IMG/VR virus record: IMGVR_UViG_3300035698_020642
Location: 1 to 30,445 of that record
Source of the DNA: a virus
Direction: 5' to 3' (one strand)
Length of the DNA stretch: 30,445 bases
Part shown: positions 3,964 through 27,789 of the stretch, one piece after another
Layout of the letters: each line of letters starts with the position of its first letter
How positions within the stretch are numbered: position 1 is the first letter of the stretch
Position numbers and translations under genes: made by a program
Notes under the pieces: model-generated
Database searches by the model: none
The model's input: only the letters and a program-made list of their open reading frames with translations
What the model was told of the DNA's origin: nothing

Positions 3964-4920
3964 TCAGAGGAACTTCAAGAGCATCTCATCATCACCGGCC
4001 GCACTTTCGGTGTGCAGCAGATCAACTTGCCAGGTGCGCTCGCCTTGGTGCTCACCCATGCTTGCGCCAACCACCTGAACGGCGGGCGAGGTGAAGTGCC
4101 ACTGTTTGCCAGCTGTGGTTGACCCGTGCAGCAATGAGAAGGCAACAAGCGTTTGCGCTTTCTTCAAGGCTACCGGATTAAAAGCGGCAAGTGTCGGCAT
4201 CATAAACTCGAGGCGTGATCGGAAGTTTCTATCTCCCGCAGTAACGACCTCTTTCTGACCAGGCAGATCGCGGAAATTCACGTTGCCTGGCGCGTTCGCA
4301 CTCCAGTTGCGCAGCACAAGATCCGTGCCGCCCAGCTTGATCTCTTCTACCGTGTCGGCCTCCGCCAGTTCCGGCAACTCAAAGGCCGAATAGTCAACGT
4401 CGGCTGGCGTTGCGGTGTCCGATGGAAGGGTCAGCAGTGCGATGCCGCTGAAGGTGAAGTAAGGAACGCCACCACCTTCGAACTCATAGCCAACTGCACC
4501 GCGCAGACCGAGAAGGCGGTAAAGAATGCCGTCGAGATTTGCATAGAGCGTAGCGCTAGAGAAACCCGACGAGACAAAGGCGTAGTCCACCTCAATGGGG
4601 CTAGGCACCGCGTCCTGGATTATCGTTTCGCTATGCTGCCCTGCGAGAAAGAGCGCTGCATAGGCAGGCGGCACGCCGATTGTCCCCGAAGGTGCCGCTT
4701 CAACCTTGAACGAGCAGGTCATGTGCTGACCCGCAAAAAGAGACGGGCTCGCGCCCATGCCGGGACGATCCAGCTGGCGCTGTACTTCGCTGCCCTCAAT
4801 TGGGTTGAGGGTGAAGTCGCGCGTCAACAATGCGTTGGCACCTACTGGCGCAACGTCGGTGCCATAGGTGACCTCTTCTTTGATCAGCACGACAACCTTG
4901 TCTTTTTTGATGAAGTCCAT
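3964..4920 (-). CDS. Major tail tube protein
   Basis: This 318-residue protein starts MDFIKKDKVVVLIKEEVTYG and has Shine-Dalgarno AGGAG. The opening pattern (KE-TYGTDVAP--ANALLTRDFTLNPIEG) and the alternating short beta-like segments are typical of tail tube subunits of Mu-like siphoviruses. In the virion it would polymerise into the non-contractile tube around the tape measure. It sits between the tail terminator region and the chaperones. No sheath protein gene of the Mu gpL type is seen next to it, which argues for a siphovirus rather than a myovirus tail. The exact family name was not checked by search. Confidence 0.8.
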   Translation of the reverse strand: MDFIKKDKVVVLIKEEVTYGTDVAPVGANALLTRDFTLNPIEGSEVQRQLDRPGMGASPSLFAGQHMTCSFKVEAAPSGTIGVPPAYAALFLAGQHSETIIQDAVPSPIEVDYAFVSSGFSSATLYANLDGILYRLLGLRGAVGYEFEGGGVPYFTFSGIALLTLPSDTATPADVDYSAFELPELAEADTVEEIKLGGTDLVLRNWSANAPGNVNFRDLPGQKEVVTAGDRNFRSRLEFMMPTLAAFNPVALKKAQTLVAFSLLHGSTTAGKQWHFTSPAVQVVGASMGEHQGERTWQVDLLHTESAAGDDEMLLKFL

Positions 4921-22287: not shown

Positions 22288-22916
22288 GCTGCACCGCCTC
22301 TCGCAAGCGGTGCCGTGCTGAACGCGATCTCTTCGCCGCTGTTCGGGTTGAAGAGCGAGCGGCTTTTGCTTCGAAGCACGGGCGTCTGTGGCCCGAGGTC
22401 ATCGACCAACAAATAGACGTGAAACCCATTGCTCGTCGGCGCGGTGCCGCGCTCACGGTCGGAGAGTTTCTTCACTACTCCAGCGGCACGGAGGCCGCGA
22501 ACATATTTCGCCGCATTGTCATATGCCGCTTGTTCGGGCTCGTTAACCTTAACGGAATAGGCCAGCAACTCACCAAGAGTGGCGCGACGCTTTATGCGCA
22601 ATGCGCGCCAGATACGTGTCCTGAGATTGTCAGGGTTTTTCCGCTCTGCGGTGAGCGGGCCTTGCGGTCCGCTGGTGTAACCACGCTTGTGTGCGGCTCT
22701 GCCCCTCGCCGTCACCTCATAACAACCGGCGCTTCTACGAACGGCATAGCCGTCGGTGATGAGGCGGCAGATACAAGAGGTGATTTTCCGACGCGGCACC
22801 TTCGGCAAATAGACGTCCAGGTGATCAAGCGTGAGGCTCTCATTTCGATCAGCGAGCGCAGCCAAGACCTGCGCGCCCGCATTCCTACCGGTTGATTTTT
22901 GTGTTGCTTTTTTCAT
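22284..22916 (-). CDS. Early protein with two winged-helix-like segments
   Basis: This 210-residue protein's ATG overlaps the MuB stop (ATGA). Two repeated segments read as winged helices: VLAALADRNESLTLDHLDVYLPKVPRRKITSCICRLITDGYAVRR (residues about 18-62) and RTRIWRALRIKRRATLGELLAYS to VRGLRAAGVVKKLS (about 99-150). The C-terminus (PVLRSKSRSLFNPNSGEEI) resembles a conserved short tail. It is probably a DNA-binding early regulator or transposition helper; the role is not known. Confidence 0.7.
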   Translation of the reverse strand: MKKATQKSTGRNAGAQVLAALADRNESLTLDHLDVYLPKVPRRKITSCICRLITDGYAVRRSAGCYEVTARGRAAHKRGYTSGPQGPLTAERKNPDNLRTRIWRALRIKRRATLGELLAYSVKVNEPEQAAYDNAAKYVRGLRAAGVVKKLSDRERGTAPTSNGFHVYLLVDDLGPQTPVLRSKSRSLFNPNSGEEIAFSTAPLARGGAA

Positions 22917-23665
22917 GCTGCCCGCACCCGCAAAGAGCGCGCCTTGCCGTCGTTGGTCAGCAGAGAGATATCCATCTGACTGAGCGATATCGCTTCCAAG
23001 GAATTTTTCCGTGCGTGCCGTTCAACTTCGGCGACAGCGTTCATGACTTCGCGCAATCGCCCTCCCGTCCGAGCGCGAATTTCGACCATCAAGTCTTGTT
23101 CGATGTTCAAGGCCACGCCCTTTGACCGCTCAGCCAGTTTGTTACAAAGGGTCTCGACATCTTTGTCGGTGCACATCTCAAAAGTGGTGACATCTGCTAT
23201 GCGGCTATAGACCTGCTCATGGCGCTTGAGCTGTCTGTCTACGCCAGTCATGCCACCAATGATGATGTGGGTGCCCGAAAGGTCCGAGATATCGCGGAGC
23301 ATTTCGATGACCTTTGTATCGCGCATCGTGTGCTCGATTTCATCCACGACAATATCGCGGCCGCTACCGGCGAGGCGTTTCATTGCTTGTTCAAAGAGCT
23401 TGTCTGAGCGGTACGCAGGCTTTTCGCCCAGCTCCGTCACTAGGTCCGTCAAGGCCCAATGCAAGGTCCATCCGCTTTTGGCGCGAAGGTAAACATGCTC
23501 CGCCTGCTGGGTTGCCCACCATTCGAGCGTTTTGGTTTTGCCCAATCCGGGCGCGCCCATAACGAGCTGCCAGCATGCCTCGGGTGCTCCGCGCTTACTG
23601 ACCCGCTGGATGCCAGCTAGAAATCGTTTGACGTTCGTCAAATCTTGAACAAAGAGTGGCCGCAT
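22913..23665 (-). CDS. MuB-like transposition ATPase
   Basis: This 250-residue AAA+ ATPase has GGAGAG upstream. Walker A is GAPGLGKT (residues 37-44) and Walker B is IVVDEIEH, with Asp108 and Glu109. IIIGGMTG follows as a sensor-like strand, and there is an arginine-rich C-terminal lid (IRARTGGRLREVMNAVAEVERHA). It resembles the TniB/MuB class, which picks target DNA and activates the transposase. It sits 21 bases after the MuA stop, the standard order. It lacks the N-terminal HTH of Mu's own B protein, as in other short members. Confidence 0.9.
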   Translation of the reverse strand: MRPLFVQDLTNVKRFLAGIQRVSKRGAPEACWQLVMGAPGLGKTKTLEWWATQQAEHVYLRAKSGWTLHWALTDLVTELGEKPAYRSDKLFEQAMKRLAGSGRDIVVDEIEHTMRDTKVIEMLRDISDLSGTHIIIGGMTGVDRQLKRHEQVYSRIADVTTFEMCTDKDVETLCNKLAERSKGVALNIEQDLMVEIRARTGGRLREVMNAVAEVERHARKNSLEAISLSQMDISLLTNDGKARSLRVRAA

Positions 23666-23686: not shown

Positions 23687-25816
23687 TTAGGAAATGTCCA
23701 ACTCGCTGGCCCCAGCAAGTTGCACTTGGATCGCTGGGTCTTGTTCCAACTCAGCGAGATATTCAGCTTGATCGGGTGTTAGGTCTTCCAGGTGCTCACG
23801 CGCCCAGCAGAACCATGACCAATCGTCAGCGACTTCGGCTTGCTCCTCTTGCCGCAGGGGAATGACGAGTGCCGCTTCGGCCTCTTCCGCCAATTCCAAA
23901 TCTTCTGGCCTCATCGGCATCGGCGGTTGCTGCGACCGATCCATTTCTCGGACCGCATCTGCAGCGGCGTCTAGCGCCGTGGTGTTGTGAGGTTGCGTCT
24001 TTCGTGGGAACTCGATCACGCGGTCACTTTGTGCCGCTGCCAAAATCTCATCGGCGATATTGTGAACTCTGTTATCCCGCCCGATGCGCTTGAACTCTTC
24101 GCGGCTTTTTCTTTGGAGTTCTTTTTGTATTTCCTTTGCTTTGACCGCGACCTCGCGTCGGTCAAGCCCAGTCCGCTCCGGTGCTTCTGCAATGCAAATG
24201 AATTTATAGTCTTGGCCATAGACGACGATGCGCCCCATGTCTGCCGGATCTAGACGGACCTGAACTTTCTCGCCAACAAAGCCACCAAGCTCCGGCGCGA
24301 TGAACGTTGAGTTCTCAACGCGGATGCCTTTTTTGCCAACGACGCGTTGCCCACTTGTATCGGGTGCTTCTGCCAACAAAACATCCAGCGCCCGTTCATT
24401 GGAAATAGTGGAAATTGACCCCGTCCAGGAGACGGCTTTTAGCTTGGGTGTCGCACCTATCGAACTGTGGTTTCTGCGGTGGTAGATGTTCTCCACATAG
24501 TCATTGATTTTCGACTGAAGCTCTTCTGAGTTTAGCTCTACCGCTATCGCACCCTGAGGGTCACCAAAGCGCTGTGAAAAACTGCGGCGCGCTTCTATCG
24601 CTTGGCGGTCAGTTACGTTGTGACCAATGAAGCCGGGCAACAGTGAGACAAAATCATGTTGCAAGGTTTGGAAGAACCGCTCTACGTGAGGCTTTGCTTC
24701 TGGGGTAAACGGAGGACAGAACTGCTGCTCAATACCCAACCCGCCTAGCGCTCGCGCGACATGGGCGGAAGCGAAGTCCTTGCCGTTGTCCATCTTGATG
24801 GTTTCTGGCACACCCCAATCCAAAATCGCCTGCCGGATAACCAAAGTGGCGGCCGTTGCTTTGGGCGTCGGTGTCACCAATACCTTCGCACGCCGCGTCC
24901 AGACGTCAATAATGGCGACAAGGTTTAGACGGCGACCTTCTGTAGTCATGATGTCGGCAGGCGAAGCGTCTATTTCCCAAACAGAATTTGGTGATTTTGC
25001 TTTTTCGGACTGCGAGCCAAATGCGACAAGGCGTAGGTTTTTGTATGCGTCTGGGTTTGCTGCCGCTAGAAACGCGTCCGCATGTTGAATACGCGCGGTT
25101 TCCATAAATCTCTGGACCGTGCGCTTTGCAATCTTCTTGCCGAACCGGGCACCTATCATCAGCTGCAACTGAGCGGCTGTAAGGTGGGGACGCGCCGCCA
25201 TGTTGGCAATGCAGAAATCGCGCAGCCCAGCTTCGCCTGCTATTTTTCCTTTTCCCTTTCGGGTTCCATACTTACCCGCTAGGCGGTTGGCACCCTCGCG
25301 GGCCACCTGCGACTGCCAGCGCTCCACTGAGCGCAAGGCGAGCGTGCCGATCTCCTCTTGCACCCACTCTTCAACGGCTATTTCACCGGCATTGAACAGG
25401 GCTGTAAACGCCCCTCTCGCGGCAACCATTGAAAGGCCACCTTCTTCTTTGAAGGTTTTCACGAGATTGACAATGACGGTTCGCGCTGCCTGCCTTGCTT
25501 GCGCCCGTTCGCCTTTTGAAAGAGGTGTGCTCTCCGCGCCTTGTGTCCTGGGGGGAAGGTAACGCGGAGAGCGCCCAGCCAGCTGAAGGGGGGAGTTCAG
25601 CTCGACAGGGTTTTCGATTAATGCACGGCGAGCGATTTCAATTCGGGCCGCTTCAGGAATGCTAGAAATGTGATACTCGCGACCACCTCCACGTCCCTCT
25701 CGTGGACGAGACTGCCAAACTTCGCGGGTCGCCTGCCGATGTACGTCGGCACGATCCGCCGAAATGCCGGGAAGCTTTTGGATCGCCAAATCTTTGGCTG
25801 TGAACCATTCCATCAT
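23687..25816 (-). CDS. MuA-like DDE transposase
   Basis: This 709-residue protein starts at an ATG overlapping the ner stop (ATGA). An N-terminal winged helix (EWFTAKDLA...GRGGGREYHISSIP, residues 1-55) is followed by further DNA-binding domains and the catalytic core. The DDE residues are Asp283 (WEIDASP), Asp343 (KMDNGKDF) and Glu379 (KPHVERFFQ). A C-terminal beta-barrel (about 490-545) and a basic then acidic tail follow, where Mu binds MuB and ClpX. It cuts and joins phage ends both for integration and replicative growth. The second Asp and the Glu are 35 residues apart, closer than in Mu. Confidence 0.95.
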   Translation of the reverse strand: MMEWFTAKDLAIQKLPGISADRADVHRQATREVWQSRPREGRGGGREYHISSIPEAARIEIARRALIENPVELNSPLQLAGRSPRYLPPRTQGAESTPLSKGERAQARQAARTVIVNLVKTFKEEGGLSMVAARGAFTALFNAGEIAVEEWVQEEIGTLALRSVERWQSQVAREGANRLAGKYGTRKGKGKIAGEAGLRDFCIANMAARPHLTAAQLQLMIGARFGKKIAKRTVQRFMETARIQHADAFLAAANPDAYKNLRLVAFGSQSEKAKSPNSVWEIDASPADIMTTEGRRLNLVAIIDVWTRRAKVLVTPTPKATAATLVIRQAILDWGVPETIKMDNGKDFASAHVARALGGLGIEQQFCPPFTPEAKPHVERFFQTLQHDFVSLLPGFIGHNVTDRQAIEARRSFSQRFGDPQGAIAVELNSEELQSKINDYVENIYHRRNHSSIGATPKLKAVSWTGSISTISNERALDVLLAEAPDTSGQRVVGKKGIRVENSTFIAPELGGFVGEKVQVRLDPADMGRIVVYGQDYKFICIAEAPERTGLDRREVAVKAKEIQKELQRKSREEFKRIGRDNRVHNIADEILAAAQSDRVIEFPRKTQPHNTTALDAAADAVREMDRSQQPPMPMRPEDLELAEEAEAALVIPLRQEEQAEVADDWSWFCWAREHLEDLTPDQAEYLAELEQDPAIQVQLAGASELDIS

Positions 25817-26124
25817 TTGCGCAACCTAACGGCGTAGCGGCGCATGCCTTCATCGTCATAGCGCTCAGGAAAAAGTTCTTCAGGAGTAAGCCCAAGGACG
25901 TTGGCAAGCTTTTTTTCTACTTCAAAGGACGGTTGGAACAACGCCTGCCGAACGGCCGCCGGAGTTTTTTTAATGCTCGAGGCAATTTTTCCATAACTCT
26001 GATCCCGCAATTTCAGTTGGTAAGAGACCCAATAGCCGCGCTCCCGAGGATCGCTGGGCACACCGTCTCTGTCGGCGGACTGTGTATTTAGTTTTTTAGT
26101 GCGACTGTTCATGTTTTTAAGCAT
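25813..26124 (-). CDS. ner: Ner-like early regulator
   Basis: This protein has 103 residues from the ATG at 26124; ATG 26112 and a TTG at 26130 are alternatives and none has a clear Shine-Dalgarno. The core matches Ner/SfsB proteins: DPRERGYWVSYQLKLRDQSYGKIASSIKKTPAAVRQAL, then a KKLANVLGLTPEELFPERYDDEG ending. In Mu, Ner shuts down both early and repressor transcription after infection. The N-terminal 25 residues lie inside the duplicated block, so a truncated copy of this start also exists upstream. Confidence 0.85.
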   Translation of the reverse strand: MLKNMNSRTKKLNTQSADRDGVPSDPRERGYWVSYQLKLRDQSYGKIASSIKKTPAAVRQALFQPSFEVEKKLANVLGLTPEELFPERYDDEGMRRYAVRLRK

Positions 26125-26407
26125 ATGCAAATAAATATAAACGTCCAGTAGTTTTTTGGGTATTAACCATATTTTGCGCTAAAACCCTGAAATCACTGAT
26201 GTTTTTCGCTTTAAAAAAAATGAGCGAAATCGCTGGGCACACCGTCTCTGTCGGCGGACTGTGTGTTTAGTTTTTTAGTGCGACTGTTCATGTTTTTAAG
26301 CATATGCAAATAAATATAAACGTCCAGTAGTTTTTTGGGTGTTAACCATGTTTTGCGCTAAAACCCTGAAATCACTGATGTTTTTCGCTTTAAAAAAAAT
26401 GAGCGAA
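26050..26407. repeat. 179-bp tandem duplication of the lysogeny control region
   Basis: Copy 1 is 26050-26228 and copy 2 is 26229-26407, with no bases between. They are identical except at three positions: 26086 A/26265 G, 26162 A/26341 G and 26171 A/26350 G. The unit holds the first ~25 codons of ner, the whole intergenic control region and the leader before the repressor. It therefore doubles any operators, promoters and transposition enhancer present. Confidence 0.95.
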
Positions 26408-26467: not shown

Positions 26468-27115
26468 ATGCAAGCAATCACAGAGCGGCTTAGAAAGGTG
26501 CGAAGCCATTTTGGTTTCTCTCAGCGCGCTATGGCGACGTTCCTCAATATTTCGGCGGCGACCTGGCACGGATATGAGCAACGCGGTGACCTGCCCAATT
26601 CTACTTGCCTTGAGAATCTTGCGACCGAGAACATCAACATCAATTGGCTATTGACCGGCGATGGGGAAATGCTTCGATCCAAAGCAATTCCCACTGATGA
26701 AGAACTTGTTTACATACCGCGCTACGATGAATTGGTAGCCGCAGGTTCCGGTGCAATACCGCTAGACCACCAGGTGGCAACTCCGGTCGCTTTCTCTCGC
26801 CAATGGCTGCTCCAAGAGTTGCGCGTTACGCCAGCCGGTCTTTTCCTAATCGAAGCGCGCGGCAATAGCATGTCCGGGTTGATCGAAGACGGCGACGTTT
26901 TACTCATCGACACCAATGAGCCAAAACTGTCGAGCGATGGGATCTACGTTTTCTCCGTCGACGGCCTCTTAATCGTCAAACAACTGCGGTCGCACATTGA
27001 TAGCAAAATTGACATTCTGAACGGCGATGGAGAGATCCAACAATCTTTCTCACGAAAAAATATCGACAACATTCAAATTATCGGACGTGTCATCTGGAAG
27101 GCGGGCCGAGCATGA
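26468..27115 (+). CDS. LexA/CI-type phage repressor (HTH plus S24 peptidase)
   Basis: The protein has 215 residues from the ATG at 26468, which has AAAGG eight bases upstream and directly precedes the HTH (ERLRKVRSHFGFSQRAMATFLNISAATWHGYE). The frame is open back to a GTG at 26339, with ATGs at 26348, 26378 and 26399, all inside repeat copy 2. After a NWLLTGDGE hinge come the cleavage-site-like VAAGSGA and the S24 fold, with catalytic Ser in GNSMSG and Lys in LLIVKQL. RecA-stimulated self-cleavage, hence SOS induction, is expected. It diverges from ner and would maintain lysogeny. Confidence 0.9.
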   Translation: MQAITERLRKVRSHFGFSQRAMATFLNISAATWHGYEQRGDLPNSTCLENLATENININWLLTGDGEMLRSKAIPTDEELVYIPRYDELVAAGSGAIPLDHQVATPVAFSRQWLLQELRVTPAGLFLIEARGNSMSGLIEDGDVLLIDTNEPKLSSDGIYVFSVDGLLIVKQLRSHIDSKIDILNGDGEIQQSFSRKNIDNIQIIGRVIWKAGRA

Positions 27116-27632: not shown

Positions 27633-27653
27633 TCTTTTGCGCGAGCGCCAGTC

Positions 27654-27789
27654 TATGTGGCGCGATGCTGGCGGTTTTCGCCAATCCAAGTGGCGCGCCA
27701 ATTTTGGGGGATGCCTTTATAAACCGCGCATTCCCGCCAGTTCCCGGTTAATCCCGCTCATATCCACCCCAGCCTATCTATGTGGCGCA
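27654..27789. repeat. Repeated (TAT)GTGGCGC motifs before the integrase
   Basis: TCTATGTGGCGC occurs exactly at 27652-27663 and 27778-27789, and a third GTGGCGC is at 27690-27696. They sit 57 to 194 bases before the integrase start. Such spaced direct repeats may be integrase arm-type sites or operators. No tRNA or core attachment site was found beside them. Confidence 0.4.

Follow-up and report, generated by a model that had tools for sequence, protein, structure and literature searches.

In bacteriophage Mu, the repressor and MuA have related DNA-binding domains, and for this reason the operators coincide with the transposition enhancer. The early control region of this phage, which is present in one copy (863-to-1099 spacing of about 235 bp), separates the divergent repressor and ner genes, and MuA and MuB come next. 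The nearest studied layout to the one described here is that of transposable phages bearing a repressor of the CI type, a family different from that of the Mu repressor. In RcapMu, RcWaterboi and DMS3, a CI-like repressor gene is divergent to that of a second regulator, which in RcapMu is of the Nlp/Ner type, while in Fc02, a B3-like member of the group, the pC2 and pE promoters overlap within 106 bp (PMC9936078). No duplicated control region was found in Mu, RcapMu, DMS3, HS6 or RcWaterboi. Neither did we find a phage with such a duplication in the literature, an absence which carries little weight, as most subscription papers lay outside the search. In JC polyomavirus, rearrangement of the non-coding control region (NCCR) recurs and its effects have been studied. 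The rearranged NCCR is a tandemly duplicated viral control region (PMC9144386, PMC3649189). This head-to-tail doubling in an unrelated eukaryotic virus serves as a comparison of workings only.

Here, we describe a Mu-like prophage which shares the divergent arrangement of repressor and ner with the phages listed above, but whose control region is present in two adjacent copies.

The prophage and its repressor

The window, an entire virus record 30,445 bases long, comprises most of a Mu-like prophage, lying on the minus strand. Genes for head and tail proteins are leftmost and are followed by GemA, MuB, MuA and ner, next to which the divergent repressor gene is found on the plus strand (Table 1). 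MuA is a DDE transposase with the Mu C-terminal and Mu HTH domains, its gene adjoins that of a MuB-type ATPase, and its residues D283, D343 and E379 are invariant across five aligned sequences; together with the divergent repressor/ner control region, this places the element among Mu-like (pro)phages. The three CYAWGTGGCGC sites, whose motif recurs with similar spacing at the ends of the related loci L017 and L018, mark the left end of the phage at about 27790 and, as predicted MuA-type binding sites, agree with this assignment. The right end falls outside the record. Beyond the left end, the DNA is most likely that of the host; it encodes a tyrosine integrase (Arm domain included) from about 27850 on, as well as a TerB_N protein and an IS-like fragment.

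Table 1. Positions of genes and sequence features in the window
Feature	Coordinates	Strand	Remarks
MuB-type ATPase	22913..23665	-	AAA_22 and phrog_296 matches
MuA-type transposase, 709 aa	23687..25816	-	PF02316, PF00665, PF09299
ner, intact; HTH_35/Nlp family, phrog_769	25813..26112	-	5' end inside copy 1
Copy 1 of the 179-bp unit	26050..26228	.	about 63 bp of ner 5' end, intergenic DNA and repressor leader
Candidate ner promoter, copy 1, TGGACG-16-TATGCT	26120..26147	-	top minus-strand score
TTAACCA motif, copy 1, putative operator	26163..26169	+	common to L017, L019 and L020
Truncated ner ORF from copy 2, MNSRTKK...SDFAHFF-stop	26211..26291	-	lacks the HTH
16-codon junction ORF, MSEIAGHTVSVGGLCV-stop	26220..26270	+	created by the duplication
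Duplication junction, AGCGAA/ATCGCT	26228..26229	.	0 bp of microhomology
Copy 2 of the 179-bp unit	26229..26407	.	G in place of the A of copy 1 at three positions
Additional ner promoter candidate, in copy 2, displaced outward by 179 bp	26299..26326	-	same scoring
TTAACCA motif, copy 2	26342..26348	+	core unchanged; flanking bases A to G
CI/S24-type repressor	26468..27115	+	probable start ATG 26468; in-frame ATG 26399 is an alternative
Three left-end sites: CTATGTGGCGC at 27653, CCAAGTGGCGC at 27686, CTATGTGGCGC at 27778	27653..27788	+	CYAWGTGGCGC motif

The repressor matches Peptidase_S24, Phage_CI_repr and HTH_19, and not PF02316. Besides the N-terminal HTH and the S24 domain, it has Ser134, Lys171 and Ala92-Gly93, all invariant in the alignment, which we take to be the Ser-Lys dyad and the Ala-Gly cleavage site. 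Thus, the complete set of features expected from an autocleavable CI/LexA-type repressor is predicted and, because the dyad and the cleavage site are kept, an SOS-type induction of the prophage is plausible. As the four closest relatives begin to align at residue M24 (ATG 26468, MQAITERL...), preceded by a purine-rich stretch, we took this codon as the repressor start; the duplication described below then probably includes only the repressor leader. The use of ATG 26399 would place three repressor codons inside the duplicated unit. On the 3' side of the repressor gene, the segment 27112-27444 encodes a small predicted secreted protein without Pfam or PHROGs match; a clearly related protein is encoded at the corresponding position in L017/L002, and L018 and L019 may encode further relatives.

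Extent and edges of the tandem duplication

Tandem Repeats Finder reported the segment 26050-26407 as 2.0 copies of a 179-bp period, with 98% matches and no indels, and an ungapped comparison showed identity at 176 of the 179 positions. This confirms the two adjacent copies with three differences described in the initial annotation, whose account of the unit contents (5' part of ner, intergenic DNA, repressor leader) also holds, provided that the repressor starts at ATG 26468. At the offset of 179 the self-match score was 170, the next best being 9, and no score above 11 was reached in the control region of any of six relatives with a single copy or of five reference phages; hence, a chance origin of the repeat is excluded. 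The flanking bases differ on both sides of the repeat (G vs A before the unit and T vs A after it), and for this reason its edges are exact and the junction is devoid of microhomology. The unit starts with TCGCT (26051-26055) and ends with AGCGA (26223-26227), so that a short inverted repeat, AGCGAAATCGCT, is formed at the junction, and it might bear on how the duplication arose.

The doubling could in principle have been produced by the assembler, either by repeating a single control region or by merging two strain variants. The record is known as an assembled metagenomic contig, and with a unit of 179 bp, longer than a typical short read, the copy number could be wrong, a true array of more than two copies included. 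However, a false join based on sequence overlap has no basis at a junction which shares no bases with its flanks, the junction itself was most likely covered by reads, and the two copies are distinguishable. Moreover, assembly errors usually collapse repeats rather than expand them. We regard an assembly error as unlikely.

Single-copy relatives and the contents of the unit

Four close relatives, L017 (Parvibaculaceae bacterium Mf 1.05b.01), L018, L019 and L020, have orthologous MuA (59-72% identity), repressor (45-63%) and ner (43-55%), with the latter two divergent, and share control-region elements with the window; yet each has one copy of this region. The distance between the two gene starts is about 150-185 bp in these loci vs 355 bp here, and subtraction of one unit leaves 176 bp, close to the 178 bp of L018. 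The single-copy relatives also identify the duplicated DNA as the orthologous control region. L017 differs from the window in having a second HTH gene (4655-4855) between ner and MuA; its HTH is 49% identical to that of the repressor, and it is possibly a paralogue acting as a repressor of the early operon.

A search of IMG/VR with the MuA alignment yielded 80 loci, and a comparable duplication was present in 0 of the 77 MuA-type loci having at least 800 bp upstream. Two candidates for a parallel event were rejected: the high score of L080 came from tandem host tRNA genes, and that of L047 from an 84-bp direct repeat (827-910 and 1418-1501, 591 bp apart) which lies outside the divergent region, among short ORFs before MuA. 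No relatives were obtained from IMG/VR by single-sequence scans with the repressor or with MuA, or by a search with the repressor alignment, and when 398 genomes of the phylum were searched with the repressor, no additional close match emerged. The region had no BLASTN match among 50,697 phage records, and exact IMG/VR searches with the unit core and with the element shared with L018 were likewise negative, although the record itself was perhaps excluded from these searches; neither approach thus revealed another phage with this control region. The doubling is seen in one record only and is absent from every relative examined.

No strict promoter was found by a sigma-70 consensus scan. Scoring with textbook sigma-70 frequencies, which is looser than the consensus and constitutes weak evidence, ranked TGGACG-16-TATGCT first among the minus-strand candidates of each copy. 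The top candidate of L018 is TTGACG-16-TATGCT, and those of L017, L018 and L019 occupy the same place before ner; this position is therefore conserved in three of the four close relatives and is not clear in L020. When the deduced single-copy sequence was compared with L017-L020, 24 of the 27 bases of the conserved element AAGCATATGC.AATAAATATAA.CGTC matched L018, and this is the same element as the ner-promoter candidate. It is very likely that the ner promoter lies within the 179-bp unit and, thus, has been doubled. For the repressor promoter, no placement was obtained, as the plus-strand candidates were weak and differed among the relatives. Terminator-like matches occur in both copies, inside ner coding DNA, and an Rfam search of the region gave no match. 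The 16-codon ORF created at the junction has no clear ribosome-binding site and is probably not translated. About 24 bp near the ner 5' end (26060-26085) are gapped in the alignment of the relatives and present in both copies; this insertion is therefore older than the duplication.

According to the initial annotation, the equivalent DNA in Mu carries the operators and the enhancer bound by MuA. One might thus propose that a transposition enhancer of the Mu type was duplicated and that the doubling was selected through transpososome assembly. MuA of the window carries HTH_Tnp_Mu_1, the domain used for enhancer binding in Mu, and the unit lies between repressor and ner, where the enhancer of Mu is found. 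On the other hand, the repressor is of the CI/S24 type and lacks the Mu-type domain; the argument equating operators with enhancer is not directly transferable to a repressor from another family, for which such identity is not expected. In addition, the left-end consensus CYAWGTGGCGC was not found within the unit at up to two mismatches, and, to our knowledge, no enhancer has been defined in phages of this group. A transposition enhancer may possibly reside inside the unit, but selection of the duplication through it appears very improbable.

Origin of the doubling and its possible role

The explanation that we favour, with reasonable though far from full confidence, is that the control region was copied once, in a fairly recent illegitimate tandem duplication which doubled its promoters and presumably its operators and left both genes intact. 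Since the 5' sides of both outward-facing genes lie in the unit, each gene keeps an adjacent copy, which is why neither was broken. The order of events that we infer would start with head-to-tail copying devoid of microhomology, for instance by template switching during replicative transposition or repair. Transcription of ner would still start in copy 1 and that of the repressor in copy 2, in the order ner <-Pner1 / Pc1-> <-Pner2 / Pc2-> repressor. Such an arrangement would add a second ner promoter, displaced outward by 179 bp, together with a facing Pc1/Pner2 pair, the truncated ner ORF and, presumably, doubled operators. The basal levels of early and repressor transcription would be expected to change somewhat, and repression to become firmer owing to the greater number of operators. 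Rather than forming part of an established design, the duplication probably arose recently and is tolerated.

The three differences between the copies (26086/26265, 26162/26341 and 26171/26350, where copy 1 always has A and copy 2 always G) all convert TATT to TGTT and exhaust the plus-strand TATT sequences of the unit, so that none is left in copy 2. Such clustering is not expected from plain random drift: in a simulation, three identical substitutions occurred with a frequency of 2%, and the motif-exhausting pattern with that of 2.8e-5, the latter being tested post hoc and on three changes only. At the third difference, A is found in L017, L019 and L020, which share TTAACCA, and copy 1 therefore looks ancestral at this position; these relatives disagree at the second difference (A, A, G), and the first gives no information. 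Of the 50 A residues, three were changed, all to G. A diversity-generating retroelement, considered since the changes fall only at A, was regarded as an unlikely source; none of the ORFs in the list was noted as a reverse transcriptase gene.

The loss of TATT from copy 2 could also indicate that the doubled switch has been selected, with the second copy diverging for its role. Either the repressor would then bind cooperatively by looping between operator sets positioned in phase, or the threshold between lysis and lysogeny would be shifted by the extra and facing promoters. The duplicated DNA is a conserved switch core, the TTAACCA core is the same in both copies, and 179 bp corresponds to 17.05 helical turns at 10.5 bp, so that the two presumed operator sets would face the same side of the helix. 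Nevertheless, in-phase spacing has a sizeable probability of arising by chance, the three changes leave most of the predicted promoters unaltered, and only one record bears the doubling. A selected role for the doubled switch is possible, if not very likely. The specific arrangement in which two in-phase sets of operators and promoters act together, with copy 2 specialised by TATT loss and with four outward and facing promoters, we consider rather unlikely.

If confirmed by reads, the duplication would represent a natural experiment on the way in which a phage decision switch tolerates, or uses, doubled operators and promoters, for which the single-copy relatives offer the reference state in studies on operator dosage, promoter interference and looping. 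Should it prove to be no more than a recent accident, it would still illustrate a simple route by which a divergent control region may be doubled with neither gene broken.
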